Of a stretch of DNA of 64,000 bases, positions 8,441 to 64,000 are shown piece after piece (positions within the stretch are counted from its first letter, which is position 1; every line of letters starts with the position of its first letter). Under the pieces are notes generated by a model. That model was given only the letters and a program-made list of their open reading frames with translations. It ran no database searches and was not told where the DNA came from. Source of the DNA: Vicia villosa (lineage: Eukaryota > Streptophyta > Magnoliopsida > Fabales > Fabaceae). The translations under genes were made by a program, and so were the position numbers. The stretch is from NCBI RefSeq assembly GCF_029867415.1, contig NC_081186.1, positions 24,989,915-25,053,914 on the forward strand, in the 5' to 3' direction.

Positions 8441-8529
8441 TGCCCTCATATTTTAGTTTTTTATTTCTCTATCTTGATCAAATTCGTAAATTGTTTCTTG
8501 ATCAAATTTGAAAAATAGTGCCCTGTTAG

Positions 8530-25393: not shown

Positions 25394-26732
25394 TGATCAG
25401 TGGTTTTCACACATATATTTATCGTTGTTTTTAAGTATGTTTAAGTTATGTTATTGAGTGTTTTATTTCTTTATTCGTCATTTTATGCTTTGGTTGTATG
25501 TTTTAATGTTTTCAGGTTCATATGGAGAAATCGGAGTAAATCAGTGCAAAACTCGGAGTTTCGAAGGAATTTCAAAAACATGCTACAGGAGGCCTGACAC
25601 GGGTGGCCGTGTTGCCCAACACGGGCCGTGTCAGGAAGAGGGCGCAAGAAGTTGGAAAAACAGTGGTGCAACACGGGTGCCCGTGTTGCTCAACACGGCC
25701 CGTGTTGCTAAGCCTGGGGCTTGGATCTTGAAAAATAAATGACAGGGGACCAACACGGGTGCCCGTGTTGCACAACACGGCCCGTGTTGGGTTTGACGCT
25801 GATTTCAGTGATTTTTGTGATTTTGTCTAGTGGTTTGCCTGCAAGGGTGTTTTTGGGATTTCCAACCAACATAAGTGAGTCTGCACTATTTAGGAGAGTT
25901 TTCAAGAGGAATTAGGTATCTTTTTGCCACACGAAGAATTGGAGGATAGAAAAAGGAAGCCTATGCAATTGGAGAAGAACAGAGAACTCTCATGAGCGGA
26001 AGCCATTGAAGATCAAAGTTCATCATCTCTATTGTAATGTCTTTATTTGATATCTTTGTAATTTCTTCGGATGATATGAGTAGCTAAACCCCCCAATGCT
26101 AGGGGGGTGTCCCTGATTAACATTTGTGATGATTTTGAATTCCGAATTTCAATAACATATTTCTCTTTCATGTTCAATTTAATGGTATAAGGTTTTTAAT
26201 GCTTTCCTCGTCGGACCAACTGAATTGAGTTATGACTGACAATTAGGATTGACCTCCATTGTTAGGGTTTTTATACCATTATACTATAGTAGATATCACC
26301 TAGGACTAGGGATACCCTATAGTAACTGGATTGTTCTTGATTATAATAATACTTGATTTGATCACTAATTTCGAAGGACTTTGGGATTAGGATTTCAATG
26401 TTCAAAGGTTTGCTCACTAAGGACTTAGGAGCAAATACCCTTAAGAACCGGTAATTGATAAGTTGAATTTTGTTAATGAAACAAGGGTTCAGAATTGTTA
26501 CATGTTAATGCACACACCTACCCTGGCATGTTACTCATATTTGGCTAAATCAACCTTTTTAAGTTTATTTGCAATTTAATTCGTACTCATAAAAACCAAA
26601 ACCCCAAGGCTTTTTGTTTAATTGAATTCCTACTAACTCTATAATATCACGTAGTCCTTGAGATCGATATTCGGGGAGTTTTCCCTTTATTACTACAGAG
26701 GCAAAATAGTACACTTGCTATTTTACCGATCA
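25394..26732 (+). repeat. 5' LTR of the gag-pro gypsy element
   Basis: Ends are tgatcagtgg and ttaccgatca, with terminal TGATC/GATCA inverted ends. It contains a cluster of CpG-bearing palindromes (25600-25790: caacacggg..cccgtgttg). The open frames seen on both strands here come from these palindromes and are not genes. Confidence 0.92.
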
Positions 26733-26760
26733 AGTTTTTGGCGCCGTTGCCGGGGACTGC
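26733..26760 (+). other. Primer-binding site, probably tRNA-Asp type
   Basis: Immediately after the LTR comes agttt, then TGGCGCCGTTGCCGGGGA, the primer site commonly found in Athila-like and some non-autonomous plant elements and thought to pair with a tRNA-Asp 3' end. Confidence 0.7.
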
Positions 26761-26874
26761 CGAAAATTGTAGAGTTTTTAGTTTTATTTCAATTAGAATT
26801 TTGTTGCTCTGCGACTAAAATCTTATTTTCAAAAAAAAAAAAATTTATTTTATTTTTGTTCCTCATTCTAATAA

Positions 26875-29349
26875 TTGTCTAATCTGTTTATGCGAGGTAA
26901 GGCCTCAGCAGAATTTCTTTTTGACGCAGAAATTGAAAGGACGTTTCACGCAAGGCGCAGACAAACTCGTCAAGCTAAACTGGAATCTGAGGAAGAAGTA
27001 ATTACAGTTCATTCTGGTTCAGACACCAAAAGTGAAGAAGATATCATGGGCGAGGTACCACCACCAGAGAGACTTCTCGGAGACTATGGTGCTAGAAACA
27101 CACCGGGAGGAAGACTTACTATTGTCAACCAACCGGTGAATGTTCCTAATTTTCAATTGCATCCAAGCACCATCACTCAGCTCGAAAGAAAGCCTTTCAC
27201 CGGAAAGGTTAATGAAGATGCAAACAAGCACCTACAGAGGTTTCTGACCATGAGTACATCTTTAAAAATCGAAGGTCATACAGAAGAGGCCAAGAAGCTG
27301 AGAATGATTCCATTCACCTTGGCAGAAGAAGCAGAAGAGTGGTTTTATTCCCTTCCAGCAGGCAGCATTACATCATGGGAAGAGATGGAAAAAGCTTTCT
27401 TAAGTGAGTATTTTCCCGCCTCGGTATTTATAAGGAAGAGGTATGACATTCTGAATTTCAAGCAGAAGGAGGGTGAGCCCTTAGGAGATGCATACAAAAG
27501 ATTCAAAAGAATTCTAGTAGCATGTCCCACTCACAATATGGACAAGACTGAACAGATGCACGTATTTGTCAATGGGCTCAGAATGAAAACAAAACAGTTA
27601 ATTGATACAGCAGCTGGAGGCTCGACAAATTTCACAACAGCCTCAGGCATCATAAAAATCATTGAAGCAATAGCTGCAAATGAGCATTTGGAATTGTATG
27701 ACAGGTGTGCTAGCAAACCGGAAGGAATCATTGATCTCAAGCTGGAGACTTCTAAAACTCGGGTTGAAGATGCGATAGCCGCAGAAGTTGAAAAGAAATT
27801 GAAGGCTATGAATATAGGTAAACAACAAGTGGCTCAAGTTCAACAAGCTCAACCTGTAAGCTGTGAAATCTGTAATGGCCCACACCAAACGGTGTACTGT
27901 TTTGCTACTCCCAAGCAGATTGAAGAAATCAAATTCCTAAGGCAAAATAACCCGTATTCTAACACCTATAATCCAGGGTGGAAGAATCATCCAAATTTTG
28001 CTTGGAAAGATCAACAACAACAAGGTACCCAGAAGGCAGAGTGGGAAGTGGCAATTGAAAGATTAGCTGGGCAGTGTTCTCAGTTCCAAGAAGAAACAAG
28101 AAACAACCACAGAAACACTTCGGCCTTAATTAAAAATCTGGAAGTTCAAGTGGGGCAGATAGCACAACATCTCACTCTACAGGCACAAGGTACCCTACCG
28201 AGCTCAACTGTGAAAAATCCGAAAGACCAAGAGAAGATTAATGCTGTTACTACAAGAAGTAGGAGAGTAGCAGAATCTGAAAAAGAAAAAGATAAAGAGG
28301 AAATAGATGACCCCATAGTAATAGAGGTGGATCTGGAAATAAGAGAGAATCCAAAAGAGCCAGAAGTGGTGGTACCACTGGTTAAACCAATTGAAGAAAA
28401 AATTAAGAAAGACATTGAACCGGTGATAAAACTACCCTTCCCCTCCAGAGTGACAAAGAAGGGTTCAAGAGAGAAAGACTTTGAGAAATTTACTAAATTG
28501 TTCAAAAAGTTAGAGGTAAATCTACCATTCTTTGAAGCCCTTGAGCACATGCCTTTGTATAAAAAATTTATGAAGGAGGTGTTGGCGAAAAAGAGATCAC
28601 TAGGAGGAGAACCAAAAATTGCAACGGAGAAGTGTGGTATAGTCTCAACAGCAAGAAAGATCCCAATAAAGAGGAAAGACCCTGGGGCAGTGGCGATACC
28701 ATGCACTATCAAGAATATAGCATTTAAAAAGGTACTCCTCAATTCTGGGTCTAGTGTGAGTTTAATGCCTTTGTCCATTTTCAAAAAGCTTGAATTAGAA
28801 AAGATTAGTGAAAGTAAGACACAGTTAAGGTTCGCTGATCACACCGTCAAGAAATCCTATGGGGTAGCTGAAGATGTACTAGTGGAAGTTGATAAGTTTG
28901 TATTCCCTGTTGACTTCCACATCATGGATATTCCGGAAGACGAAGAAACTCCTATCCTTCTTGGGAGACCATTTTTGTCGACAGGCCGCTGCAACTTCGA
29001 CATAGAAAAAGGGACACAAACGCTAAAATCATTTGATGAAGAAGTAACCTTGAAGATGTTAGGAGTTAAGAAAAATAGGGCAGGTGTGAATGAGAAAACT
29101 TCATCTGGTATGACAGAAGGTGAAAAAGAAGACAAAAATCCTAAAAATCTCCAAGAAAAAGTTTCAAGCATAGCCTCTCGGTTGGAACCAACTTATGCAG
29201 CTGTCAAAAGTCCTAAGAAAGCTAAGGAAGTCAAGAAGAATGTGGGAAGTAAACTGAAGAGGATGGTTATCCATGCTTTTAATCTTCATGAGTTCACGGT
29301 TGCGGAAGTGATTAGCAACAAGGTTTGGAGAAGGAAATACCCTCCATAA
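26875..29349 (+). CDS. Gag-protease polyprotein of a non-autonomous gypsy element
   Basis: An open frame of 824 codons without internal stop. Residues ~1-60 are basic and Arg/Gln-rich. Residues ~100-280 are the gag core (FTGKVNEDANKHLQRFL, AEEWFYSLP, WEEMEKAFLSEYFP, RFKRILVACP). A knuckle CEICNGPHQTVYC lies at ~330-345. A Lys/Glu-rich linker (~450-560) precedes the aspartic protease at ~600-730 (VLLNSGSSVSLMPLS ... ILLGRPFLSTG). The protease triad position reads Asn-Ser-Gly: codon 28741-28743 is AAT where Asp (GAT) is normal, so the protease should be inactive unless this is a family variant. Gag would assemble particles, and RT and integrase would have to come from elsewhere. The start is the first in-frame ATG, 142 bp after the LTR. 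Confidence 0.85.
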   Translation: MSNLFMRGKASAEFLFDAEIERTFHARRRQTRQAKLESEEEVITVHSGSDTKSEEDIMGEVPPPERLLGDYGARNTPGGRLTIVNQPVNVPNFQLHPSTITQLERKPFTGKVNEDANKHLQRFLTMSTSLKIEGHTEEAKKLRMIPFTLAEEAEEWFYSLPAGSITSWEEMEKAFLSEYFPASVFIRKRYDILNFKQKEGEPLGDAYKRFKRILVACPTHNMDKTEQMHVFVNGLRMKTKQLIDTAAGGSTNFTTASGIIKIIEAIAANEHLELYDRCASKPEGIIDLKLETSKTRVEDAIAAEVEKKLKAMNIGKQQVAQVQQAQPVSCEICNGPHQTVYCFATPKQIEEIKFLRQNNPYSNTYNPGWKNHPNFAWKDQQQQGTQKAEWEVAIERLAGQCSQFQEETRNNHRNTSALIKNLEVQVGQIAQHLTLQAQGTLPSSTVKNPKDQEKINAVTTRSRRVAESEKEKDKEEIDDPIVIEVDLEIRENPKEPEVVVPLVKPIEEKIKKDIEPVIKLPFPSRVTKKGSREKDFEKFTKLFKKLEVNLPFFEALEHMPLYKKFMKEVLAKKRSLGGEPKIATEKCGIVSTARKIPIKRKDPGAVAIPCTIKNIAFKKVLLNSGSSVSLMPLSIFKKLELEKISESKTQLRFADHTVKKSYGVAEDVLVEVDKFVFPVDFHIMDIPEDEETPILLGRPFLSTGRCNFDIEKGTQTLKSFDEEVTLKMLGVKKNRAGVNEKTSSGMTEGEKEDKNPKNLQEKVSSIASRLEPTYAAVKSPKKAKEVKKNVGSKLKRMVIHAFNLHEFTVAEVISNKVWRRKYPP

Positions 29350-30450
29350 TAAAGGGTAATGAACCGTCGAGCCATGCGACGTTAAACGAAGCGCTTCGTG
29401 GGAGGCAACCCACGGTTTTAATAATTAATTTTTCTGTTTGTTTATGTTATTTTCAGGAAATAAAAGAGGACGTCTCTAGTGAAAGCTCGGAAGTGATCAT
29501 TGGAGTGCAATACCCTCTATGAGTCACCTCTCTCGAACTCATTCTGAAACATTGAGGTCGATGTTTAGTTCAAGTTTGGGGGAGGGGCTTCTCTTTGCAT
29601 TTTATATTTTTATGTTATTGGTATGATGTGAAACCATAAAGTAAATTCTGCCCAAATTTTAAATTTTTGTTGAAGAAGTGTTGATCCTAAAGAGCGATCG
29701 GGAATAGTATATAGAGATGAAGCGAGGATTGGTTGAGGACAGAAAGTTCGGAATAATGTGACAAGAAGAGGTTTGTTTTAAATACCCTTGGTTCCCTAAA
29801 AGAGATACGAGTCTAACGTGTAGATTTGCACCATAGTACTTGTCTCCTGAGAAGTACTTCTCGAGTAGTTTATTGATACAGTCTGGCATAATTCGGATTC
29901 ACTTGCATGATGGCTGGTTGAGAAAAAAAAAGAGATATAAAGTTGGCACCAAATGATGAAAAGGCGGTAAAAGGCAATCGGCTCGCTAAGTTGGGTAACC
30001 CTCACCCGGTTATTCAGCCCAAAGGAAATTGATCCCCAAACGTCGTCCAAAAGGACAATATATAACTGCAAAGTTTGAAAATTTCATCGGTAATAAAAAG
30101 TAGCCAATGCTGCTAGTTTGGTGCCAGGAAAAGAAAATAAGAAGCCTTGATTTGTCTCATGCAGGTGATGATTATTATAAGAAATGCAGTGCCTTAATAT
30201 GATTGTCCGAATGAAAGAGGAGGAAAATCGGAAAGAGACTTAAGTGCAAAGCATAGTTGGAGAGGTATCCGAAACGGGAGCTTGAGGTTTAATGTGGTAA
30301 CAAAACTCGTCGCGTCATGTGAATGCCAAACCCACTGTTTCTTGATCAATACAGACGGATATCTCACGTATGAACACCGTGTGCTTTGAAGGTCATTAAC
30401 TTTTGTAATTGTCGCTTGAGGTCAAGCAACGGTTTTAGTTTGGGGGAGTT
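29350..30450 (+). other. Non-coding 3' region of the gag-pro gypsy element
   Basis: No long ORF. It begins with a compact block of three hairpins (29366-29414), and ends with the purine tract tttgggggagtt (30439-30450) adjoining the 3' LTR. A similar gtttgggggag tract is at 29573-29584. The pol genes of an autonomous relative would be expected around here. Confidence 0.7.
29366..29414 (+). promoter_or_regulatory. Three adjacent stem-loops after the gag-pro stop
   Basis: In order: gtcg(agccatg)cgac, then the self-complementary gaagcgcttc, then cgtggg(aggcaa)cccacg. From memory, a similar block (…AAGCGCTT.GTGGGAGGCAACCCA..) follows the coding region of other plant gypsy elements, so it is likely a conserved RNA signal. 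Its role is not known to me. Confidence 0.55.
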
Positions 30451-31788
30451 TGATCAGTGGTTTTCACACATATATTTATCGTTGTTTTTAAGTATGTTTA
30501 AGTTATGTTATTGAGTGTTTTATTTCTTTATTCGTCATTTTATGCTTTGGTTGTATGTTTTAATGTTTTCAGGTTCATATGGAGAAATCGGAGTAAATCA
30601 GTGCAAAACTCGGAGTTTCGAAGGAATTTCAAAAACATGCTACAGGAGGTCTGACACGGGTGGCCGTGTTGCCCAACACGGGCCGTGTCAGGAAGAGGGC
30701 GCAAGAAGTTGGAAAAACAGTGGTGCAACACGGGTGCCCGTGTCGCTCAACACGGCCCGTGTTGCTAAGCCTAGGACTTGGATCTTGAAAAATAAATGAC
30801 AGGGGACCAACACGGGTGCCCGTGTTGCACAACACGGCCCGTGTTGGGTTTGACGCTGATTTCAGTGATTTTTGTGATTTTGTCCAGTGGTTTGCCTGCA
30901 AGGGTGTTTTTGGGATTTCCAACCAACTTAAGTGAGTCTGCACTATTTAGGAGAGTTTTCAAGAGGAATTAGGTATCTTTTTGCCACACGAAGAATTAGA
31001 GGATAGAAAAAGGAAGCCTATGCAATTGGAAAGAACAGAGAACTCTCATGAGCGGAAGCCATTGAAGATCAAAGTTCATCATCTCTATTGTAATGTCTTT
31101 ATTTGATATATTAATAATTTCTTCGGATGATATGAGTAGCTAAACCCCCCAATGCTAGGGGGGTGTCCCTGATTAACATTTGTGATGATTTTGAATTCCG
31201 AATTTCAATAACATATTTCTCTTTCATGTTCAATTTAATGGTATAAGGTTTTTAATGCTTTACTCGTCGGACCAACTGAATTGAGTTATGACTGACAATT
31301 AGGATTGACCTCCATTGTTAGGGTTTTTATACCATTATACTATAGTATATATCACCTAGGACTATGGATAACCTACAGTAACCGGATTGTTCTTGATTAT
31401 AATAATACTTGATTTGATCACTAATTTCGAAGGACTTTGGGATTAGGATTTCAATGTTCAAAGGTTTGCTCACTAAGGACTTAGGAGCAAATACCCTTAA
31501 GAACCGGTAATTGATAAGTTGAATTTTGTTAATGAAACAAGGGTTCAGAATTGTTACCTGTTAATGCACACACCTACCCTGGCATATTACTCATATTTGG
31601 CTAAATCAACCTTTTTAAGTTTATTTGCAATTTAATTCGTACTCATAAAAACCAAAACCCCAATGCTTTTTGTTTAATTGAATTCCTACTAACTCTATAA
31701 TATCACGTAGTCCTTGAGATCGATATTCGGGGAGTTTTCCCTTTATTACTACAGAGGCAAAATAGTACACTTGCTATTTTACCGATCA
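30451..31788 (+). repeat. 3' LTR of the gag-pro gypsy element
   Basis: A 1338-bp LTR collinear with 25394-26732, including the palindrome cluster (30650-30850). The purine tract lies directly left of it. Confidence 0.92.
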
Positions 31789-37065: not shown

Positions 37066-40000
37066 GTTGGTTTGATCGGTTTGGGGATCGGATTAAAAAG
37101 AGTAAGGTTAGGGAGTTTATTTTGTCTAAATCATTGATTTTTCATGGCAAACCAAAAAACAAAAGTTTTTGAGATCTAATATTCCCTTATCCATTCCTTG
37201 TGGGTAATTATTTACATGGGTGGAGATTTTGTCCAATTATGTTGAAAGTAGTGGTGGTTTATTGTTGATTTGGTGGTTCGAAAGGTAAATCTTTATTCTC
37301 TTTCTTTAGTCTTGATTTCTTAGGTGTTTATTTAGAGGGGAGGCTCCTAACAATTTGTGTTATATTGTTAATGTTTATTCCAAGTGTTCCCTAGCTAATT
37401 GATAAGAGAGTTATGCTGATTGATTTGTCTACTCATAGAGTGAGTTTAGTAAGTGTCAATTGGTGTGTTTTGAGTAATTTTAATTCTCTACGTTCTTCTG
37501 AAGAAAGGGCAAGAGTGGGACACTGTAACATCCCAAAATTTCTTATTTAATTAATTTAATTAAGTTTTAATTAATTAATTTGAATTAGCATTTTATTGGA
37601 ATTATGTTGGGAGAAATAATAAAATGTAGTGTTGGGTCATTGGTGGAGTTAGTAATGTGGGGGTGTTAGTGTGAAGGAGCCCAATACTAAATTATGTTAT
37701 GTTTTCATAAAACAAGAAAATAAGAGGAAATTGAGAAATATAGGAGGTAAATCTAAGAGGGAGAGAAGAGAACTCATGGGCAAAAGCTATTTTCGCAACT
37801 ATTTGGTAGCCTTCACAAAATGGGTCATAACTTCCTGCTCGTAACTCCAAATCAGGTAATTCTCGAGGATTCGGATTCTACACGAAATTTCCTTCGATTT
37901 GATATATTAATTCGTGTCATGGAGGTTCTCGAAGAGGGAGATAAGTGAGTTTGAAGATTGGCGATTCTTGCTGAATTTGGAGAAAAAGGGCTTACGGGTT
38001 TGATGGAGAAGAAGGGGAAAAGTCCATATTCTTGGCTAAGGTAAGGGGGGACTCTTCCGATTAACCTCTATTATCGGGTTGTAGATGATAGGATTAAGAT
38101 TTGTATGGTATTGACTCAATAGAGAAGTATGTTCTAGGTTGGGGTTTTGACATTCAGGCTCAAAATGATAAATTATGTGTAAATGCTTGTTGTGATGTTT
38201 GATTATGTTTGGATGTGTTGTTGAGGCATGAAATAACATGGAATGATTGTGAATTAATTATGTTTTTCGTGTATGGTCGAAATGATTCGATTTGGGTTGT
38301 GTTGGATGGAAATAAGTTGTTGTCAAAAGTGTTTTTTTTTGCTGTTACAGGTGATGTAACTGGTTACGGTCGGACTTGTAACCGGTTACGGCTGTGAGAA
38401 ATGGGGTTTTTGGGCTGGTTACGAGTTCGTAACCGGGTACGGTGTTGTTCGTAACCGGTTACGGCTGAAACTGTTTTTGAAAATTATTTTCGTAACCCGT
38501 TACGCCTTTTCGTAACCCGTTACGGCTGAAGCTTTTTTTGAAAAATTGTTGTTCGTAACCCGTTACGCCTTTTCGTAATCCGTTACGCTGCAGCCTTTAC
38601 GAAAAATATTTATTTTCAAAAATTTGTATCTTTTGAACCGTAAATCCGTTTTAGACGCCGTTTTGGACGTTGTTCCTTAAATTGAATGCTCTACCATATG
38701 AAATAAATAAAACAACAATAACTTGATTTTATTTTGAAAAGTATCGTTTTCTCCAAATGTGGTTTATTCTTGTTTTGCATAATTGATGAGGTGCAATGAA
38801 TTGTTGGTTGCATAATTGAATATGTGCAATGATATGTGTTGTTATAATGTGATTGCTCCTGCTTGTTATGCAAATGGATGTTGTTCATGGTAAATATGGT
38901 TATCATGTGTTTTGATGAATGGTGACGTAAATGCTCTGTTGTTGTTGGGTTGATTTGTTGTACTTGATACACGATTGTGAGAGGTGCTATTGTTGTTGCA
39001 CTGTGTGGTGGATGTTATATCTGTTATGATGTTGTGGTTGTAATTGGTGTTGTTATACATATATTGCTGATGTAAAATATGTATTCTATTTGGTTGGGAA
39101 TAACATAACTGTGTGTGTGGCTATTGATTACTATATTGGTTGATGATTATGACATTGGTTGGTCTATGTGGATGATGAGCATGTTATGGTTGATACATGA
39201 ATTTCATAATCATTATGTGGCTAATCCTTGACGATGGTGGATCAGTGATAGCTAATTCCCATTGTGTGGAATTAGTGAGTGGGTGTCGCTGTATCCTTGA
39301 CGATGGTGGATCGGTGAGATGGGTTCGTCCCATGATTGGTACCACATGCATGTAGTTGCATTGCATTAGGTGTTTGGTTCATTATAACATGAATGGAAGT
39401 TGTCCAATGTTATAATGTTGTGTGTTTGATGTATGTGTGTATAGCCTGAATATATGTCGATGTTGGGTGAATATTATACTGTTGATGTTTTATCGTTTAT
39501 GAACTGATAACATTGTTTAATTGCGAATGAGACTCACCCTTACTGTTGACTATTTTTCAGATTAAGGATTAGCGGCTTGTGCTGGGTGAGGATAACTCGT
39601 AGAGTTACTTCGTTTAGTTCGGTTGTGTCGGTGTCATGCTCTGGTCTTGTAACACTGGGGGACGGGTGTGTCTAGAGTCGGATGATAACTCTAGTTTTGG
39701 TTTTGTTGTTGAATAATGTTGGTTATGCCTTAAACATGGTAGATGATGATTTTGATTATTCAACTAATAAAGTATTCCGCTGTGTTTTAAACATGTTTGC
39801 AATTGTTTATGTTCCTCAGAACAGCATGACAGATGTTTTATTTTATATGAGATAATTGTAACGCTCTTAATTACATGTTTACTCTGAAAATATTATTTAA
39901 TTTATCGGGGGTTTAGAAGGGTGTTACAGACACCATTCCAGTTCCTCTAAGAATGTGGATATCTTGGAGTTTTTTAACTTTATCTCTCAAATGGAGCTAA

Positions 40001-40493: not shown

Positions 40494-42141
40494 GTTTGGC
40501 TTACGTATCTAGAGGGGGGGGGTGAATAGATACTTCAGAATTTATTCGTATTTTTCTTTAAAAATATGGCGAAAGCGTTTAGGGATCGACACGCGTCTAT
40601 TCCGAACCGCTACGGGAAGGATCATATATGTTTTTAAACCACAAACTGATTATGATGTTAAGATGGAAATACTATTAGAGAATCAACAAGTTATGCTACA
40701 ATAAATCGTTTAAGTGTTTAACTTGGATAAGCTTGTTTCCAATGACTTTGATTAATGAAAGAAGCAATATATCAAACACGTGGTGTATAATACTCAAATT
40801 GAGTTGTGGATCAATGTGTGGTGACTTGTGATGTGTTTGCAGAATTTTATCACACAAATTTAACACTTTGATTCGTTAATCAATTTGCGATTATAACCAG
40901 AAATGAGCACAACGTAATCGAAAAGATAAAAGCGATAAAGAACACGATATTTGTTCAGGCAGTTCGTCGATCGTCCTCGCTACGACTACATCTGCCCCCA
41001 ATTCCAAACGGGAATTGGGATGTCTTTCATTATGATTGAAAAGAGTTTATACAAGAAGATAACAAAGCAATAATGATAAACCGAATATGTTGATTCTTTG
41101 TAGCTTCTTCCCCTTGATCTTGAGCCAGATCAAGTATCTTCCAAGAGCTTGTCATTGATTCCTTTTATGCAGTGTTGTGAATTGATTGAAACTTTGTTCT
41201 TCAACTTATACACTCAGCTGAATTATTGATTAAGCCTCTTGACAAAAACCTCCAAAATTCACCAATCTTGGAGGACAAAATCCGCAGATTTTCTTCACCA
41301 ATAACCCCACAAATCTTCACCCACTAGGAACTTTCAATTCCTTTCCATGGACGTTATCAATCTTGATCACAAACCCTCACCATAAGAATTGTTATGTGTA
41401 ATTATGTTGGAGTTGAGAAGAAGATAGAAGATGAGTAGACTTTATGTATCTTTCAGTTGTTGGTGTTGACTTCAATAATTAGCTGAAAATGATATATATA
41501 GGTGCTAGCACAGTTGGCTGAAGGCAGACACATAATTTGGTAAATTTTGGGGTGATAGGTCGACCTACTCGATTGCTTGGGTCGACCCAAATGGAACAGA
41601 TTCAGAAGTTTGCTAGTTGTCTTTAGTTGCGTCGACCTGATGGGACTCTGGGTCGACCTAAAATCAGGTGACTTTGGTTCTTTTGATTTTCATCAGTTTT
41701 AGGTCGACCTAGGCAGTTGGTTGAGTCGACCTAAATGAAGCAGAAGTGAAACCTTTTTGCTTCCTTCAGTTTGCGTCGACCTAGAGACAGAATGGGTCGA
41801 CCTAACTGGACCAATTTCTTCCACAAGATGGATGTAGTATTCTAGGTCAACCTAGGCAGTTGGTTGAGTCAACCTAAATGAAGCAGAAGTGAAACCTTTT
41901 AGCTTCCTTCAATTTGTGTCGACCTAGAGACAAAATGGGTCGACCTAACTGGACCAATTTCTTCCACAAGATGGATGTTGTATTCCAGGTCGACCTAGGC
42001 TTGTGTTGAGTCGACCTAAGATGTCCAAAAGTGCCAAAATCTTGCTTTTCCTTATATCATTCACTTGTAGCTTGATATTTGTTCAATGAAGATGTTTGCC
42101 ATGAATCAAAAACTATTGATGAGTATATTCTTGCACTTACA
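40494..42141 (-). repeat. 3' LTR of copia family 3, first copy
   Basis: A 1648-bp LTR with plus-strand ends tgttagacg and cttaca. Directly to its right the minus strand reads AAAAAGGGGGAGTA, the purine tract, so the element is on the minus strand. A TATA-type stretch is at 41491-41500. GGTCGACC-type palindromes crowd 41560-42020, including a ~140-bp duplicated block. It interrupts the old LINE at 40493. Confidence 0.85.
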
Positions 42142-52334: not shown

Positions 52335-52539
52335 TGTAGCAACCTGCCCTAAAAATTAGCTTTTAGAGTCGCCACCTATTCTACCAAGGCGAATAGGAAA
52401 CCTCGTGCAGTTAAGAGATCGGGGTAAGATACTATATTCGGGTCGAGGGAAGGTGTTAGGCACCCTAAACCCTTTCCTAAGGTTCGCATTGTAGAGTCAA
52501 GGTTTGTGGCAAAAAGATAAAGAAAGATGACAAACAGGG
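52335..52539 (-). repeat. Ogre LTR end remnant
   Basis: About 205 bp starting tgtagcaacctgccc are nearly identical to the start of the full LTR at 56624. The match stops abruptly at 'caaacaggg', so the rest of this LTR has been deleted. It is the outer edge of the left Ogre copy. Confidence 0.85.
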
Positions 52540-53620
52540 TAAGATACTATATTCTGTCTTGAAAGTTTAAAAACATTTTTTGAGTAAAGCGAAGTTCTTT
52601 TTTTTTTGTAAGAAAGTGATATCAACTCAAGAGTTATAGTAGACCTTAAGGAGTCGGGATACCTTTTGTAACGGTATGCTTTCAAACTAACCATGCTTCA
52701 GTTAGGACTTTTAAGGGTTTTAACGTGGCCTGGTTCACGGTTTTAAGAAACAAAGGATAGTGGCTCAAAGTTTATTTGTACCCATTCCCATCTTCGTGAT
52801 GTTCTCCATTCCTATGCTCAGTTAACTATGTGTTTGAGCTCCAAAAGACTTTGGGAATACTGATGTTCATGATGGTTTAAAAACCAAAGATTTATTTGCA
52901 AAGGCAGCCATCTTCCTTTCTTGTAATATTTTCCTTTTGTCGAAGGTATATAGTAACCTCTTTTCGACGTTGTTATCCCTAACTTTTGCCTGAACTATTC
53001 GTTTTAAAACTACAGTCAGTGGGATGCCCCAATTTTGCCTAAGTCTCCTTAATAGGTTTTGACTTAGCAGGCCTTTGCATTGCTTTCTCTTTTTCTTTGC
53101 GGATATTGACTGCCGGACTTAATGATGACGGGGGACCATCGGTGATTATGTTCAAAGGAACAACTTGGAATAATTAAGTTAATTGAGCAACTACCCTACC
53201 CCAGGTTATGTATGAAGGGTTTTATTTTATATGAAGGAAAACTCCTACTTCTTTAGGCTCAAAGGGGTTGACGAGGGATTAACATCCTTATATCTCCCTT
53301 ATTTAGGATTTGAAAAAAATGCCTGTACATCGTCAACACGGTCTGTTCGAAAGCGTAATGTATGAAATTGTGGTATCGTTTTCATCATTCTCCCTCTAAA
53401 GGTGTACGACTTTAACAAGAGTTGAATATCACAAAGGAGAAAACCAAGTAAAAACATAGTTTTGAATATAGTGAGAACACTAGGAATAAATCAAGACAAA
53501 CGTAAGCAATGCATTAGTGATTATTGTAAAGTACATAGCATATGTCGTAAGACTAATGTTTAAACAAACGAAAAGAAATTGCGAATGAAAACAAAACTAA
53601 TGATCTACGAAATCCTCCTT
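52540..53620 (-). other. Ogre-associated non-coding sequence
   Basis: No ORF. It lies between the LTR remnant and the gag end, where protease, RT and integrase should be, so a large deletion removed them. A short phrase, 'gtaagatactatattc', recurs at the junction (52425 and 52540), a possible deletion footprint. Confidence 0.45.
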
Positions 53621-55702
53621 CTAGCCACCTATGGCATTAGACTTGCGAGGATCTTCGAACTCAATGAGCCCTTCTTCAATCAAATCTTGGATCTTGTGCT
53701 TCAACGGCCCACAATCCTCTGTATCATGACCGGGACTATCTGAATGATAAGAGCACCCAGCATGATGCTTGTACCCGGGAGCGGGGTTAGCTGGAGCTGA
53801 GTACGGAGGTAGCAGAGTTACCAAGTTCTGACTGAGCAGACGTTGCAAAGCTTGAGACAATGGCATGTACAACGGGGTAAATGATCGTTTTGGCTTGGAC
53901 TTCCAGGGGCGTTGGCCACCCTGTTGCTTTTGCTGATCCCTTTGTTGTGATACTGGGGTTTGATTACCCATGATTGCCCCTAGGCATGGCAACGGGGCGG
54001 GTCGGGGACGGTTTTTACCTCCCCCAAACCCAAACCCGAATCCCCAATCAATCCCCGTTACCCGCCCCAAACCCAAACGGGGATGGGGAATTAAAACCCA
54101 AATCCGTCCTTAACGGGTTCGGGTATCCCCGCACCGCCACCATGTATTTTGTAAAATCAATATTTTTAATAAAAATATTTACTTTTTCCAAAATCAAATT
54201 ACATTATAAATAACAAAATAAAACAATCTCAAAAAATTTCATACATATATTTCAAATATTTAAAATAATAAATACAAATCAAATTATTAAAACATTAGCC
54301 ACATATTTAATAATATAAATTATGAAATATAAATAATAATGTACATATTGAAATAAACGGGGCGGGTTCGGGGACGGGTTCGGGGTGGGTACTAGTGTCC
54401 CCATTACCCGACCCATCCCCATGTTTTTTAATCGGGGAAAACCCAAACCCAAATCCAGTAAAAACGGGTTTTCCCCGTCAACTTCAGGGCGGGTTCGGGT
54501 GGGTACCCGTGGGTCTGGGTTTTATTGCCATGACTAATTGCCCCCACAGTGTTGGGTTCCTTTTTTCCGTCATATGACTTCTTTGTGTGATAGGAACCTG
54601 AGGGTGCCCCTTGTATCTTCCCATTTTTTATTCCATCTTCAATTCTCTCACCAATGACTACCAAGTCCGAGAACCATGGAGATATGCTTCCGACCATCTT
54701 GTCGTAGTACGGTCCTTGCAAAGTGCTCATAAATATGTCCACCAGTTCTTTTTCCATTAGGGGAGGTTGGACTCGGGAAGCCATTTCCCTTCACCTTTGG
54801 GCATACTCCTTGAATGATTCATCCTTCTTCTGTGACATATTTTGTAATTGCATCCGGTTGGGTGCCATGTCCAGGTTGTACTTGTATTGCTTCAAAAATG
54901 TGTTAGCCAGATCATTCCAGCTTCTGATATAGGATTTCTCCAGTTGCATATACCAGTCAATAGATGCTCCGTTTAAACTCTCTTGGAAGAAGTGTATCAT
55001 CAGCTTTTGATCGTGAGCATAAGCAGCCATTTTTCGTACATACATGCGCAAGTGATTCCTCGGACATGTGAGTCCTTTGTATTTCTTGAAGTCGAGAATC
55101 TTGAATTTGTGTGGAATAGTTAAGTCTGAGACCAAGCTCATTTCGAAGGTATCCACGTCAAAGACATCGTATCCTTCTACCACTTTTAGTCTCTCTTCTA
55201 GTGCCTTGATTTGTTCACTGTCCTTGGAGTCTTCCCCAGAGTTAGGAACAGATTGTTGTGCCCGAGGTGCTTGGTCTGTGTTGTCCACCTCTTGTACTCC
55301 GTATTGTAGATCCAGGTAATCTTCATCCTTAGGGACATTGTTAGCAGGAACGCGAACTGTGCGGGTCGTCCCTTTCGTTTGAGGAGGAGGGACAAATCCT
55401 TCTTGAGAGGTCTCTCCTTTCTCTTGGAATTGGATAGCTCTCCTAACAGATCGGACCTGAGGTCTATCCTTAGCCGGGCCAAAGCCTGAAACAAATCCTA
55501 GCGGCGGGTTTTCGTCATTGGGGATCTCATCCTGAACCAGGGTATCCCTAGACTGAACCTCTTTTGCTTTTTCTTGTTTATCCAGGAGGGCCTTCATGAA
55601 CCCTAGCATTTGAGCCATACCTCCTTTAACCACTTCCATATTGACCTTCAGTTGATCCACTTCCTCACGAAGGGCGGCTTGATTCTGTTCCAGCTGATCC
55701 AT
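53621..55702 (-). pseudogene. Ogre gag, split by a MITE
   Basis: The start MDQLEQNQAALREEVDQ is at 55702. The N-terminal coiled coil (about residues 1-45) is followed by an acidic linker and the gag core (FKKYKGLTCPRNHLRMYVRKMAAYAHDQKLMIHFFQESLNGASIDWYMQ). A TGA near 54791 replaces the TGG of the usual YAQRWRE. The frame continues as MASRVQPPLMEKELVDIFM (54428-54784). The hAT MITE at 53981-54536 then interrupts it. The C-terminus has a Cys/His motif (CSYHSDSPGHDTEDC) and ends at 53621. Ogre Gag forms particles in active copies. Protease and pol do not follow, so this copy is inert. The family call rests on gag style, LTR length and the tRNA-Arg primer site. Confidence 0.83.
53981..54536. mobile_element. 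GC-rich hAT-type MITE in Ogre gag
   Basis: A 556-bp element with inverted ends taggcatggcaa and tagtcatggcaa (one mismatch), flanked by a perfect 8-bp duplication attgcccc (53973-53980 and 54537-54544), which is the hAT signature. Both arms are rich in gggcgggttcgggg-type sequence and the centre is AT-rich. It has no transposase. Confidence 0.9.
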
Positions 55703-56600
55703 TGATTTCTTTTGCTGAAATCCTGTTTGATAAGACGGTCGGGATGTTAGGTTATCCTTCCCAATGATCCCTTGTTCTGGAGACAGAAGAGAAATCTTCT
55801 CTTAATGCCATGAAAATGATGTGTATGCCATGAATGATATGCATGATATCCTTTTTTTCTTTCTTTTTTTTTTTGAATAAGATATGATGCAAGAATGCAC
55901 ATGATGTATGATGAATGGAAAAAAGAAATAATAAAAAATAATGATCAACACATATATATACATATAGCACATAATCACATAGGCCCTAGGTTCATAAGTT
56001 CATAGGTTCGACGTAGCGGCTCTAGGGAGCCTACCCTTTTATGGGGGGTTCTAGAAGGTCTCATGGGGTCGTTCGTAGCCTTCGAGACTTTTTGTCTCTG
56101 CGGATTTTAGAACAACTCATTTTATCCAATGAGGTTCGAATTTTTGGGGTAGGTTCTCGGAGAAATCAGCTGACTACCAAGTCCTGCCCTCAACAAGGTC
56201 AAGCCTTGTATTGGACATTTCCGGATACTCAACCCACTCCAAGTGGAGTTATCAATGAGACTCGTCGGCGATTCAAGTCCCCCCTGATCTCAAGGATAAC
56301 TCCCACACTTAGGTTTTAACACTACATAATATACCCAGCAGTGCATATAAAAATATAACAGCAGGCAATAAAATATAAATATATTCACATAAACAAATAA
56401 GTATAAACATATTAACATAAACAATTAAATATTTTTAGATAAAAATAAACAAATTTCAAAAAAAAAATAATAATAATTACAAACCCTAAAAAAGGCAAAT
56501 TAGCCAAACCCTAAAAAGAATTTGCTAAAAACCTAAATGTTTCGCCAAAAACCTAAACCCCGCTAAAACCTATAGGAGCATAGTAATTCACCAATATAGT
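55703..56600 (-). other. Ogre 5' leader, non-coding
   Basis: This lies between the primer site and gag. A T-rich run is at 55850-55875 (A/G-rich on the transcript). No functional ORF is seen. Confidence 0.6.
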
Positions 56601-56623
56601 GTTTCCCCAGCAGAGTCGCCAGC
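56601..56623 (-). other. Ogre primer-binding site (tRNA-Arg type)
   Basis: The minus strand reads TGGCGACTCTGCTGGGGA directly beside the LTR end at 56624. This is the primer site characteristic of legume Ogre elements. Confidence 0.85.
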
Positions 56624-58025
56624 TGTAGCAACCTGCCCTAAAAATTAGCTTTTAGAGTCGCCACCTATTCTACCAAGGCGAATAGGAAACCTCGCGCAGT
56701 TAAGAGATCAGGGTAAGATACTATATTCGGGTCGAGGGAAGGTGTTAGGCACCCTAAACCCTTTCCTAAGGTTCGCATTGTAGAGTCAAGGTTTGTGGCA
56801 AAAAGATAAAGAAAGATGACAAACAGGGTTAAGGCAAATAATTATCATAATAAAAGGTTTACAATTTAAATCGGGAAAATTGAGATTTATGGGGAAGGGG
56901 ACTCGCCTTGTTGCCAAGTGCCTACGTACCTCCTTAGGGAGGATCAGAGTCTACGTAGTTCGGGGGACGGGTTGTACGCCCTTTGAGTTTGAAATTTGAT
57001 TTGATATGGTTTTGGAGGCCTTTGAGTAGCCTATCGTAGTTTTGAATGAGGATGAAAATCCGTAGTTTGATATTGAGGTTTTGAAAGGTTTGAAAAGTAT
57101 TTTAAGGTTTGGGCGTACAACCCGAGTTTAATTTTGCATTATTAACCGCAACGATCAATAGATTCAATCGCCATAGTTAAAAGATTTGAAGTTGCACCAT
57201 TACCAATTTTAATCAATTGATTTGATTATAACTAATAACGAATTAGGATATTTTTTAATGATTAATTTGTATCGTTACCCCTCGTAATCGATTGGTTCGA
57301 TTAAAAAGAATAACGAATTAGGATTTAGAAAAAAAGAAGAGGTTAATCATTGTCGCTACCGCGAAAAATGGAATCAGAGTCGCCACTAATATATTTATCC
57401 CATCGAGGGAAAGGAATACCAGGAAACCTAACTCGAAATAAGAACAAGGTCTTTCGACCAGAGAATAGGGTACGGGAGTCGGTTACGCAAGGGGAAGGTG
57501 TTAGCACCCCTCACGCCCATCGTACTCGATGGTATCTACCTATGTTTGTTTCTATCTAAAGGGTGTATCTATGTCTAAAGCCTAAATGTGAATGAATGCA
57601 AAAGAAATACAGGGAAAAGAAAGATTATTTACAAGTGTGCTCGCTTAGGCCCCGCGACCCAATGCCTACGTATCCCTTAAAAGGAATCAGAGCTACCGTA
57701 GTTCGGCTCCATAGTTTCCATTTGTTTTGTGTTTTTTAGTTGAACAGAGGTTAAGGTCACAATCCACGATGCTCGACCTTTGGAGACTTATACGCCTACT
57801 TTTGGAAAGGACTTAACTTGTTCTTAAGTGCCTAACAAGGCAAAAGAAAAGAATCTTGGGTTTGTGTTTTTTATGTAACTACATGATGAACAAAACCCAA
57901 TACAAGGTTTCGCACCACTTCGTCACTTTGTTTTAATTTGAGCCTTTATTAGATGTTTTAAGTGTTTTTGGTTGGGTATTTTTTAAGGGAATTTACTTTG
58001 CGATTAGAATCACATAAAATGTATA

Positions 58026-58295
58026 ATGATCGAGAAGCAGATTAGGGAATGAATCCCACTCACTTCTATCCCATTATGTAATGATCGAGAAGCAGATTAG
58101 GGAATGAATCCCACTCACTTCTCTCCCATTAATTAATGTTTGAGAAACAGATTAGGGAATGAATCCCACTCATTTCTCTCCCATTAAGTAGTGACCGAGA
58201 AACAGATTAGGGAATGAATCCCACTCATTTCTATGCCACTAAGTGATTGAGAAACAGATTAGGGAATGAATCCCACTCATTTCTCTATCACTTTC
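58026..58295. repeat. 55-bp tandem repeat, five copies, in the Ogre LTR
   Basis: Five units of about 52-55 bp, each with gagaa.cagattagggaatgaatccca..ca.ttct. The unit contains a small inverted repeat (gggaatgaatccc) and arms gagaa/ttctc. Two units are almost identical and the rest more diverged. Confidence 0.85.
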
Positions 58296-60566
58296 TTAAT
58301 GTGATTCGCATCTCTATTTGTTAATGTTTTAATGTTGAAAAAGAAAAATAATGAATAAGGGGACTAACCTATTCTCTAATCTAAGTTATTCTAATCTAAG
58401 TCTAATGTTAACATGGTGACTAAATTCTAAAAGGAGCATTAAAATGGTATTAACAAAGTAGGCCAAAAATATGGCCAAAAACAAGTAACAAAAATCACAT
58501 GACAATTACACAAAAATGATATGGAAATAGTACAAAAGCAATTCAAACATTAGTGCGAAATTAAACTAAAAAATACTACTATTTTTATGGGTTTTTTATG
58601 AGGGAGAATTCAATTAAATGTCAAAATTAGTACTAAAAAACCTAAATGCTACTAAGCCTAAACTAGTATTTATATTATTTTCTATGTCATTTTTATTACC
58701 TAAAATCGAACAAAAATTATGATTCTAAATGTCATTATTATCTAAAAATCTAATGAGAAAATTATGGTTTTTATATGCTTTTTATTATCTAAAAAATGCG
58801 GTAAAACGAATTAAGTAAGACAAAACCTAAAATCTATCAATTACATGTGAAACAGGGGGTGCTAATCAGAAAATATGGTGTAGTCAGCAAAGGCCCAGAA
58901 GGTTATGGCCCAGATTTGTTTTTATGAAGATTTTCAGCCAAAAAGGAAAGTGGTACGCGGGCTCAGGTGGGGTGAGAAAATGAATTTGTGGCCCAAGATT
59001 ATTATTTTCGTTATGATCCAGATTTTGTCCTATGGTGACGTTCATTTCACATTAATCAGACTTTATTTAGTATTTAAACCCAATTAATCTCATATTAAAC
59101 TCACCCATGTTAATTGATGTTTATTCAACTTAATTATCAAATCAAAATTAAATTAAAAAAAGATATTAGGGTTAGAAATGTGACCGTCCCAATTCAATTG
59201 CATCAGGCCCTCTCTTCTTCAAGCTCACGACGGTGCACGAAACTCCTTGCTCCGATCCACAAATTGACGAAGCCACCATGACGTACACAACTCTAATGAC
59301 ACTCTCCTTCTCTCGCGGCTGAAAATGGCGATTCAAGACTCCTGCCGGCGCGATCTCCTTCTTCACGTGAACGGTAGCGACGACACCTCTTTCTTCTCCA
59401 ATCAACCTGTTCAGAATGCCGTGACAGACACACGTGTCTCCGACGTCTCTCCCCTCTTTCGTCCTTCTTTCTTCTGGCTTCCGATTCCGTCTCTCTTTCG
59501 AAACTCACCTCTCAATCTCTCCGCCTCTCGCCGCCATGGACCGCATCGTGAATCAACGTCAACCATTATCTCCGAATCAGAATCTCTCTCAGGTTGTTAA
59601 AATCTCTTCTCCACCGACTCAATCTTGCTCCTTCTCGATCTCCCTTGATTTCATTCTCGTTTGAATTGTTGAAGAGTTGTTCATGGTTGTTGAATTAAGA
59701 TAGGAAGATTGAAGGTTTTGATGTTGTGAGATGACGATGATGATTGAAGAACGAAAGGGAAAGTGATTCTGCTACCAGTTTTCTGTGAATTGAAGCGTGG
59801 AGTGATGAAGAATCAGAGATTCTTGGAGAATTGTAGATGATGAGGCGATGATGAAGACGTAGAAGCAGGTGAATTCAGAGGGAGATATAAAGCTCATTAC
59901 AAAGAATCGGTTAGTTCTCTTTTTTGATTCTGTTATTTTTCTGTTGCAATTTTCTCTTTTGTTTTCTGAATTTTCTGTTGGTGATTTGATGAAGGTTGGT
60001 ACAAAGATGAAGATTGGTGGTGGATGAAGCGTGTGAAGTGGAGATGGAGATGAAGTGAAGGTTATGAAAAATGATGAAGAATGGCTGAGGAATCTGAAGC
60101 TGATAAAAAATGGTGGGCACCCTTGAATGAAGGTGGAGAAGAGAATATATAGGTTGAGGAAATTGATTCTGAAGGTTAGTTCTGATTCCTCTCCTTTGAT
60201 CTCTTCCCCTCTTTCTGTTATATTCTGTTGAATTCTGTTATAAGGCCTGGCAGAATGTTAGTTAGGTTGTTATGAAGTTAGTTAAGGTGGTTAACTCTGT
60301 TGAATTCAGTTAGAAGTTGTTGTTTCTGTTATACTCTCTCCCTCGATTTCAGTTCCTTATTTCTCCTTTGTGCTGCTGCTGGTTAATTTTGTTTGAACCC
60401 GTAACGGTTCGGTTTATTTGCAGGCTGGTTCATGGAGCTGCAAGTCGGTTTATGTTGGTTGAAATTTGAAGATGGAAGTAGGACCATTGGGAAGCTTGAA
60501 TCCTCAGTGGTAAAAAGCATGACATGGAAGAATCAAGATTTTGGATGAGTTTATGATTTTTTTTTA

Positions 60567-60860
60567 GGGTTAATGAACTTTTTGGTCCCTCTAAATATTA
60601 CAGATTTCGTTTTTAGTCCCTCTAAAATTTTCCTTTAAGAAATCGTGCCTCCAAAATTTTTCGTCTAAACTATTGGTCCCTAACGTCAAATTTCGTAGCT
60701 AATCGGTGGCTAAAGTCGTAGCTAATCTCTAGCAAATTTGACGTTAGGGACCAATAGTTTAGACGAAAAATTTTGAAGGGACGATTTCTTAAAGGAAAAT
60801 TTTGGAGGGACTGAAAACGAAATCTGCAATATTTAGAGGGACCAAAAAGTTCATTAACCC
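60567..60860. mobile_element. Foldback MITE (Mutator type) in the Ogre LTR
   Basis: A 294-bp near-palindrome: gggttaatgaactttttgg... on the left and its complement on the right, with arms matching for more than 100 bp. It is flanked by the same 9 bp (eight T and an A) on both sides. No coding sequence. It should give a long hairpin if transcribed. Confidence 0.82.
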
Positions 60861-61754
60861 TTTTTTTTATTGTAATTTTTTTTGTAATGAGCTTGGACCT
60901 TTAGAATGTTATAATGTATCGGACTTGCAATTATAATTGCCTTTCATGGAATCGGAATGTAATAACAGAGATTTGAAAACCAAAGCGAATGCCCTTTTTT
61001 TTCCAATTCAACTTCTTTTCCGATACTTCAAATGAACTTTCAATCCTTTTTTGCAAATTGGATGACTCACTCTTGGATGAAAAGGACAATGTATGATGAA
61101 TCTTGAACGAAACTCTTAGCATTGGTTTAAGCTTGAATCTTCAAATAGATTTTGAACATAATCAAATAGTCCCATGATATTCCATATTCGCCATGCCTTT
61201 TCATTTCAACCCATCTCAACAATAGTGTACTGAAAATAGTTTACTGAAGGAATCTTTGCGGGAGATACGGATTGAAGCGTAAAACAACATCTTACAATGA
61301 AATTCAGTACACCCAATTGACAATTTTTAACGCCATGTATAAGAAATTTTAATTCTCTTACTTTGAGATACACCTTGATGAAAGAGATGAATTGAGAGGA
61401 TGGAAGCAAAGACGTCCAAAGTGTCTTAAGATAAAACCCTAGCCCGATAAACCTTCAGTTGAAAGTCACGCCAAGCTCAAACACAACAAATGAAAATCCT
61501 TGTTAGTCAACTATAGGGAAATAAACCATATCACACTCCTCACTACATGAAGAACCAGAAGAATGATATTTTGTTTGTCATGTACGCCTCAATCTCATTA
61601 TGAAACCCCTAAACTTCCAAGATCCTTGATCCCATGCCAAATTGATTAATTAATGAGTGCATGATATGCTAATGACCTAATGGAAATATACAAATGAAAT
61701 AAGAAGTCTAAGTCAATTATAAATAAATATGTGGGCAAATTTTGGGGTGCAACA

Positions 61755-64000
61755 GTTGCCCCTGTTCAATCTGCTTGGACCTGAATGTACGAACAATACA
61801 AGTTCTGGACATTTGAGGTGTTAGTGGATTGAATACTTGAGAACCCAAAAATTTGTTCTCTGGAGTAACAACTCTGAAGAGACACTTGAAATTGTAATTT
61901 TGAAGGAGGACATCAGTTACTACTGATTCCAAACAAGGGATATTGTTAAATGTTTGATAAAACAAGAAACGCCAGTCAACTGCTGGATCTTTGCCGATAA
62001 CAACCGGTCTTTGAAGGAAAGGACCAATAACAATCGGACCCCACCGAAGAACGCCTGTAACAACAGGACTTTAAGGAAAAGGCTAGTAACCACTAGACTT
62101 GACCAAAGGACGCCTATAACAATAGGACTTTTATTGGTAACGACCAGATTTGAAGGACAGGACTAATAACAATCAGACCTAACCGAAAGATGCCTGTAAC
62201 CACAGGACTTTAAAGGAACAGACTAGTAACAACTAGAACTGACCAAAGGACGCCTATAATAATAGGACTTTTACTAGTAACGACCATATTTGAAGGACAG
62301 GACTAATAACAATCAGACCTAACCGAAAGATGCCTGTAACCACAAGACTTTAAAGGAACAGACTAGTAACAACTAGAACTGACCAAAGGATGCCTATAAC
62401 AATAGGACTTTTACTGGTAACAACCAGATTTTGAAGGAAAGGACCAATAACAATCAGACCTAACCGAAAGATGCCTGTAACCACAGGACTTTAAAGGGAC
62501 AGACTAGTAACAACTAGAACTGACCAAAGGATGCCTATAACAATAGGACTTTTACTGGTAACAACCAGATTTTGAAGGAAAGGACCAATAACAATCAGAC
62601 CTAACCGAAAGATGCCTGTAACCACAGGACTTTAAAGGAACAGACTAGTAACAACTAGAACTGACCAAAGGATGCCTATGACAATAGGACTTTTACTGGT
62701 AACAACCAGAATTCGAAGGATGCCCATAACCATGGGACTTTTAAGGAAAAGGCTAGTAACCACTAGACTCAACCAAAGGATGCCTGTAACAACAGGGCTT
62801 TTGTTGGTAACAACCAGAATTTGAAGGATGCCCATAACCATGGGACTTTTGTAAGAGATGCCAATAATCATTGGACTTGACTGAAAGAAAGGCTAGTGAC
62901 AAATAGAATCAGTCAGGGGATGCCAGTAAATACTGGGCTTTCCAGGAGATATCAATGCTTGCGAAGCATAAGAATTACATGGATCCCTCAGGCCAAAGGC
63001 GGGGTGTACTCTTCAAGGGTGGCAATCACTCGAATTTGCCACACACATAGTATGGATTTCAAATGATTGAAAAATGAGATGGGTTGAATTTCCACCCTCA
63101 TTCGCATTCTATTATGCACGCGACATGCGGGAAAATAACCAAAACAAGACTTGCAAGAAGCAAGAGGTATCTCTTATGCAAAAGGCAGTAAGGGGACTCA
63201 CAAAAAGTGAATACAAAGAGAGGACTGGTGACGACCAGACTCTATTAGATGATGCCAGTAAACACTGGGCTTTGAAGAAGGTATTGATTACTTACGGAAT
63301 ATAAGAACTACATGGTTCCCTCAGGCCAAAAGACGGGGTGTAATTCTACAAGGGTGACAATCATTCGAATTGCCACACACAAAGTATGGGTTATCCAAAC
63401 GATTGAACTCAACAAACGGGAAATAACCAAGGAGACAATGATCTTAATGAAGACTGACTTTGTATTCAATCCACAATGGAGAGAGAAAGTGCGACTTCTT
63501 CTGGGGATATGTTACTTTGTGCCTTGGAAGCACATACAAACTTGGCTTATGCATTGATGCATGTTTGAATTTTTCCATGGCGTAATGCTCCATATTCATG
63601 GAAATGCTACGCGTTTTTGTAGAAGCAATGTGAATGCAATGATTACTATATGTAGAGATAATGAGGGTCCTTTAGAGAATATTCTGTTGACTTGTCGATC
63701 GAGCTTCGTCTCTGACCTCGGGAGAGGTAAACACCAGGGAGAATCCCCTTAGTGTTAAGAACTCTGTGGGGATGCCAATAGACATTGCACTTTGACTTGC
63801 AAGATATACTTATGATTGTTGACTTGAAGAATAATTTCTGACTTCTCACCATGTGCCATTGCTTGGAGAATTTTCAGCTTTGAGGAGATTCCCTCAATTC
63901 ACCATGGTGGGGATTAGAAATTCGGATAAGGAACCCTTTCTAGGGTGAGTGGAATAACTCCAAGGAGAAATAAACTCCTGTGCTTGGGGAGAGAATGAAT
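61755..64000 (-). other. 3' non-coding region of the right Ogre copy
   Basis: Read on the minus strand it ends in the purine tract at the LTR. No pol frame is seen in these 2.2 kb. It contains the stem-loop array (61972-62936) and later scattered stem-loops at 63225, 63255 and 63775. A phrase 'gggtg(g/a)caatca.tcgaa..tgccacaca' occurs twice (63017 and 63353). Hypervariable, tandem-repeat-rich 3' regions are known in Ogre elements. Confidence 0.7.
61972..62936 (-). repeat. Array of ~35 covarying stem-loops
   Basis: Short inverted repeats with five-base arms and a four-base spacer, mostly AACA or AACC, recur every 21-30 bp. From 62193 to 62709 they form a higher-order unit of about 140 bp with five hairpins: stems CCTGT, CTAGT, CCTAT, CTGGT (CTAGT in one unit) and C(C/T)AAT, repeated about four times. 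Stem sequences differ between hairpins yet both arms change together. Outside the unit other paired stems occur (CCCAT/ATGGG, CCAAT/ATTGG, CCAGT/ACTGG). Most plus-strand mismatches become G-U pairs on the minus strand. Confidence 0.88.

Follow-up and report, generated by a model that had tools for sequence, protein, structure and literature searches.

The 64,000-nucleotide stretch of the Vicia villosa genome analyzed here (the window) contains a ladder of 34 small hairpins with covarying arms, counting imperfect units, within positions 61994..62936. The array is located in the 3'UTR of an Ogre-like LTR retrotransposon on the minus strand, and it is common to the family copies examined in this genome. 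We tentatively interpret it, at a little below an even chance, as a repeated RNA structural element that has been kept paired by selection in an Ogre-like 3'UTR.

On the plus strand, the units follow the layout C-NNN-T, a four-base loop (AACA, AACC, and similar), and A-NNN-G; on the minus strand, which is the sense strand of the host element, the form is C-NNN-U / NGUU / A-NNN-G, with UGUU and GGUU as transcript loops. Spacing between units is mostly 30 bp, with intervals of 21, 27, 29, and 32 bp also present. Across 61972-62936 there are 24 perfect 5-4-5 hairpins (23 ladder units and one hairpin in a spacer, at 62738), as compared with a mean of 0.8 and a maximum of 5 in 1000 dinucleotide shuffles, and a mean of 2 and a maximum of 8 in the 63 other 965-bp tiles of the window. 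A ladder of this kind had been proposed in an earlier note on this DNA, and these counts bear out its existence; the seven perfect stems listed there are all present, and perfect ladder units comprise seven different Watson-Crick stems. Variation occurs in step at three of the five stem pairs among 28 distinct rows, while the closing T-A pair is invariant and the terminal C-G pair is retained in 25 of the 28. Because the array consists for the most part of a 141-bp higher-order repeat (61998..62720, not assigned to a strand; 5.1 copies with 93% matches, five hairpins each), its units are far from independent. Two further hairpins on the minus strand, at 63225..63238 and 63255..63268, stand isolated outside the ladder interval, upstream of the array in the sense direction.

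A model built from the ladder units (R1) returned 33 matches in the window, of which 32 are ladder units; the sole exception, at 49952 (E = 0.76), was rejected as another ladder site. No Rfam family matched the window above its gathering score. Open frames cross parts of the array on both strands, and were judged to be a side effect of a repeat spacing that is mostly divisible by three; a coding role was rejected, with no homologue for the 86-aa and 117-aa translations and no Pfam match for the pieces compared. Other repeats occur elsewhere in the window. Another set of palindromes, unrelated to the ladder, comprises CGTAACCGGTTACG and CGTAACCCGTTACG and is repeated at 38360-38600, partly in a 63-bp tandem array, and a 143-bp tandem repeat at 41700-42019 is rich in GTCGACCTA motifs.

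Placement of the array in a minus-strand 3'UTR is based on the LTR ends, a primer-like site, a PPT-like tract, and a fuller copy of the element elsewhere in the genome. The earlier note had assigned the hairpins to an Ogre 3' non-coding region; the region was correctly identified, but the strand is the opposite one, since the Ogre element reads in sense on the minus strand. The PPT-like tract (61755..61772, minus strand) immediately precedes the 3' LTR, and the distance from the array is 227 nt to the PPT core and 239 nt to the LTR in the window copy. The LTR itself (56624..61754, minus strand; 5131 bp by these ends) starts with TGTTGC and ends with GCTACA, and a second LTR end, at 52335-52540, repeats its final 206 bp at 99% identity. 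Two bases past the LTR end is a primer-binding-site-like sequence, TGGCGACTCTGCTGGGGA (56604..56621, minus strand), which may match tRNA-Arg, the type of primer site typical for Ogre. Downstream of the LTR, a gag fragment (PF03732; 54794..55801, minus strand) matches a Vicia villosa protein with 90% identity over 90% of its length. Four of the six minus-strand ORFs of at least 110 aa in the window's own copy were compared in search of pol, and no Pfam match was recovered.

A simple insertion with this LTR at its 5' end was also considered but rejected, as no fitting target-site duplication is present (GCAAC on the 5' side, ATAAG on the 3' side). For this reason we assign 56624..61754 to the array-bearing element as its 3' LTR; recombination would have made it the 5' LTR of the body that follows. 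Across 52335-61754, the LTR is seemingly common to two bodies, one represented by the 3'UTR and PPT-like tract and the other by the primer site and gag; no target-site duplication matching the LTR end at 52335 was found, and this sharing suggests recombination between elements. Within the LTR, a 55-bp tandem repeat of 4.8 copies occupies 58024-58284, and a near-palindromic inverted repeat of about 296 bp, perhaps a MITE-like insertion, occupies 60566-60861. Separately, two 1.34-kb repeats with 98.5% identity surround a gag-protease ORF (26875-29349) at 25393-31788, perhaps representing a young LTR element without pol.

The fuller copy (L050, on C3) encodes, on the same strand as the array and upstream of it, the domains PF24924, PF03732, PF00078, PF17917, PF13456, and PF00665/PF17921, in that order, corresponding to gag, RT, RNase H, a second (archaeal-type) RNase H, and integrase. 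The match to the second RNase H (PF13456) has E = 1e-6 and lies at the ORF end. The integrase ORF ends at 8508 and the first hairpin is at 9775, leaving a gap of about 1.3 kb. No protease domain was found among the six of eight plus-strand ORFs compared with Pfam. This domain order is compatible with Ogre, of the Tat lineage. An extra ORF upstream of gag (ORF1, positions 1-1017) matches DUF7745; this differs from the plant mobile domain reported for Ogre eORFs, a domain found in 57% of Ogre elements (PMC6317226). In a third copy (L051), no ORF reaches 110 aa.

Searching the 2.03-Gb genome with the array, with 40 of 808 candidates scored, returned 59 matches corresponding to 39 places besides the window. 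Of these, 38 were sampled (C4:77262998, beside L021, was left out), giving 39 copies with the window. Units were chosen by their constant positions, with at most one mismatch, and by the presence of a neighbor within 36 bases, ignoring inner pairing; removal of 106 of 1395 first matches as overlapping or misplaced left 1289 units from the 39 copies, window included, with 22-48 units per copy in this set chosen by array similarity. A PPT/LTR junction, allowing up to 5 substitutions, is found downstream of the array in 36 of the 39 copies, at 179-232 nt in 32 and at 532-783 nt in four. Additionally, the ladder is present, with 17-41 units each, in all 29 other loci picked by their LTR/PPT flank and not by the array. 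These are the best-scoring loci (83-87% identical; 40 of 3038 candidates scored), six of them being copies already sampled and some being near-duplicates, and they constitute a non-random sample of the family. The array recurs in related copies of the same genome, at 38 array-found and 29 of 29 flank-found loci, in support of the earlier note. In general structure it consists of tandem repeats of variable copy number between the end of pol and the 3' LTR, with the pol side observed in one copy. Two ladder copies located 10.8 kb apart on C6 (L056 and L057) have identical unit counts and commonest stems, and are probably a recent tandem duplication. No relatives of the array were identified in public viral contigs, and one pattern match in a marine bacterial MAG was rejected as chance, judging from the size of the pattern.

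Covariation was assessed against a phylogeny-aware null in which the observed substitutions are scattered along the tree, with 300 column pairs ranked. With 28 distinct rows and 7-nt flanks, the window copy places the inner stem pairs at ranks 1-3 of 300 (E = 0, 0.01, and 0.95). They also come out on top using the core only (E = 0, 0.075, 0.45), using all 36 rows (E = 0.0025, 0.0375, 1.37), and using 12-nt flanks (E = 0.065, 0.155, 1.03; none below 0.05). The same three pairs rank 1-3 for the 135 haplotypes present in at least two of the 39 copies (E = 0.01, 0.025, 4.5), with E = 0.035, 0.045, and 4.45 under a tree inferred from non-stem positions. E falls below 0.05 for two inner pairs in most settings, and for the third in none. 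The originally claimed change of the arms in step is recovered, beyond such a null, both in the window and across the 39 copies. When pairs are counted directly, minus-strand pairing is seen in 136 of 140 cells of the 28 distinct rows (36 units), and the covariation score of 0.676 compares with 0.256 ± 0.037 in shuffles, none of 500 shuffles scoring as high. In the window copy, neither pairs changed on both sides (3 vs. 2.5 in shuffles) nor further pair types (8 vs. 7.5) are in excess; overall, pair counting exceeds shuffles on three of five measures.

Covariation is also observed among the 370 units that share an identical five bases before and four bases after the hairpin. In this class, pair 3 is C-G in 34 units (expected 4.2) and A-T in 11 (expected 0.5), and pair 4 is A-T in 80 (expected 23.9); pair 2, which includes no T-A, does not covary. 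The occurrence of different Watson-Crick stems within identical flanking bases, and the top ranking of stem pairs under tree-based nulls, argue against chance inheritance, in which a few ancestral hairpins, paired for an old reason or for none, would have been multiplied by tandem duplication, with the covariation mirroring that history. Both the 141-bp higher-order repeat and the same small set of common stems across the copies examined would be expected from such a history, which we nonetheless consider improbable. Because only seven abundant stems are fully Watson-Crick across the 39 copies, we estimate that independent compensated changes are few, about six.

Folding of either strand surpasses that of its 20 shuffles (z = −5.6 for sense, −6.9 for plus), and the core hairpin forms in 30 of 36 units on the sense strand and in 29 of 36 on the plus strand. 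For the five class E units, folding energies are −9.9 to −12.9 kcal/mol in sense vs. −2.1 to −4.6 in plus orientation; an example of this extended hairpin on the minus strand, 62016..62045 (core 62024-62037), has an outer helix in its 8-nt flanks and reaches −12.9 kcal/mol in sense and −4.6 in plus when folded with 13-nt flanks. Outer helices around alternate hairpins covary weakly. For classes B/E, a set of eight related units picked after the folds were seen, the permutation values (40320 permutations) are 0.36% for sense and 2.95% for plus; across all 25 distinct units, they are 0.28% for sense and 11% for plus. Classes A/C/F show no outer-helix covariation on the sense strand (0.84; 0.056 on plus).

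The ability of both strands to fold well, and the lack of a strand bias among one-step variants described below, would be consistent with selection acting on palindromic DNA, through a dimeric DNA-binding protein or a cruciform, in place of RNA. However, a sequence-specific dimer should conserve stem sequence, and three inner pairs vary; the abundant G.U stems, moreover, are broken palindromes when read as DNA. We regard this explanation as very unlikely.

Sense-strand RNA tolerates G.U pairs, which are equal to A.C on the opposite strand. Four non-Watson-Crick stems occur in at least 15 of the 39 loci, and all four are G.U on the sense strand, with none A.C; these abundant stems pair on the sense strand only, which would favor RNA-level selection, but the rarer variants do not follow them. 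Fully paired units number 1138 of 1289 on the sense strand vs. 919 of 1289 on the plus strand, though much of this difference stems from two CTGAT stems. One-step variants of the inner pairs show no strand bias in the 39 copies (14 G.U vs. 12 A.C, p = 0.85), and the comparison of strands, which was set up to separate selection from arm templating, is not significant in this set. A strand bias seen in the window alone (inner pairs with five G.U, no A.C, and one other) vanished in the 39 copies and was discarded; outer-pair events in the window comprise two A.C and one other. One-arm intermediates between Watson-Crick stems sum to 37 G.U and 30 A.C units, and G.U:A.C ratios among haplotypes are 8:4 for those in three or more loci and 3:1 for those in five or more, in the predicted direction but too few. 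Several one-step inner variants are located at CAG/CTG sites, where they presumably may reflect methylation-driven decay after insertion, and would therefore carry little information on the active element. The transition/transversion make-up of stem and flank variants does not differ significantly (p = 0.24 for singles, 0.26 for shared variants). Unpairable variants among shared haplotypes account for 37 of 97 single changes at threshold 1 and 0 of 12 at threshold 3; their depletion was rejected as a signal of selection, the flank control being not significantly different.

Covariation without a clear strand bias also fits templated arm copying, the alternative already named in the earlier note, in which a nascent strand folds back during reverse transcription or replication and one arm is copied onto the other. 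Perfect pairing would then be a mutational by-product, and the stalling and strand transfer involved would also account for the multiplication of units. Hairpins are reported to arise and persist through template switching (PMC8794818); in those hairpins both arms change together, as in the ladder, but they are situated in RNA genes, whereas the ladder is a retrotransposon tandem array with little ongoing correction. Two swaps from U-A to A-U with almost no intermediates (one unit each) are likewise compatible with copying. However, such copying is scarcely visible in genomic copies: only two of 99 rare stems, or three of 227 units, are fully Watson-Crick across the 39 copies, and the flank-picked loci add just three more such stems, of one unit each (60 of 71 stems covered). 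Stems with two G.U pairs (CTGAT/ATTGG) persist uncorrected in 34 of 39 copies, and the outer helices that covary, weakly, across internal loops would demand longer, interrupted copying. The scarcity of perfect rare stems bears on genomic copies and is silent on events during reverse transcription. On balance, arm copying appears unlikely, albeit a serious competitor. The earlier note had named independent divergence of the arms as evidence against covariation. Such divergence is observed in the rare one-arm changes, as 97 of 99 rare stems lack full Watson-Crick pairing, whereas the common stems do not show it.

If RNA-level selection is responsible, a minus-strand transcript would fold into a series of small hairpins, their near-constant loop being UGUU or GGUU, in a constant frame with C-G at the base and U-A beneath the loop, and with an outer helix on alternate hairpins. 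Selection during the active life of the element may have preserved the pairing of the arms while the three inner pairs drifted, partly through G.U intermediates. Close to the 3' end of the genomic RNA, the array could then offer many copies of a landing site to a protein that recognizes shape and loop and not stem sequence; candidate readers include Gag, for packaging, and a host export factor or stability factor. Such a landing site would be the most likely use of the array; other candidate roles, listed in the earlier note, are dimerization, protection of the RNA 3' end, and supply of dsRNA. With slightly more reserve than for selection on pairing itself, we propose that this plant LTR retrotransposon possesses a multi-copy, shape-read RNA element of some 17-48 small hairpins per copy, constant in loop and frame, free in stem sequence, and with its pairing kept by selection in the genomic RNA. 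Retroviral RNA export elements near the 3' LTR offer a parallel in position, as structured RNAs lying just upstream of the PPT and LTR; they are single or paired elements and are not known to form ladders.

Hypervariable 3'UTR tandem repeats of Ogre/Tat retrotransposons were reportedly described by Macas in 2009. In Lathyrus sativus, Ogre elements account for 45% of the genome, and tandem repeats of the Ogre 3'UTR are already known as seeds of satellites (PMC7004042, PMC3305785); 3'UTR tandem repeats are also reported for the lineage Retand (PMC11963269). The Ogre/Tat repeats, like the ladder, are tandem arrays of varying unit number between pol and the 3' LTR, but are described as sources of satellite DNA, whereas the ladder is made up of paired hairpins (PMC7004042); "hairpin" and "palindrom" have no occurrences in the main text of that article. 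Soybean GmOgre/Gmr9 minisatellites A-E are interleaved unit families in an Ogre 3' region, as here (PMC3305785). Their unit lengths are 26-105 bp, and pairing is unmentioned in the available portions of that source, which states that possible functions of these repeats are not known; this comparison is by description. Among the matches listed in open-access literature on Ogre and retrotransposons, titles and the starts of abstracts contained no hairpin ladder.

The ladder provides a testable idea for these repeats: either they are RNA structure, or reverse transcription itself writes palindromes, and either would help account for the repetitive, hypervariable nature of the 3'UTR region. If the proposed reading is true, the ladder would represent a retroelement counterpart of a protein-landing array, and the tandem repeats of Ogre 3'UTRs, hitherto regarded as satellite seeds, would be functional RNA.
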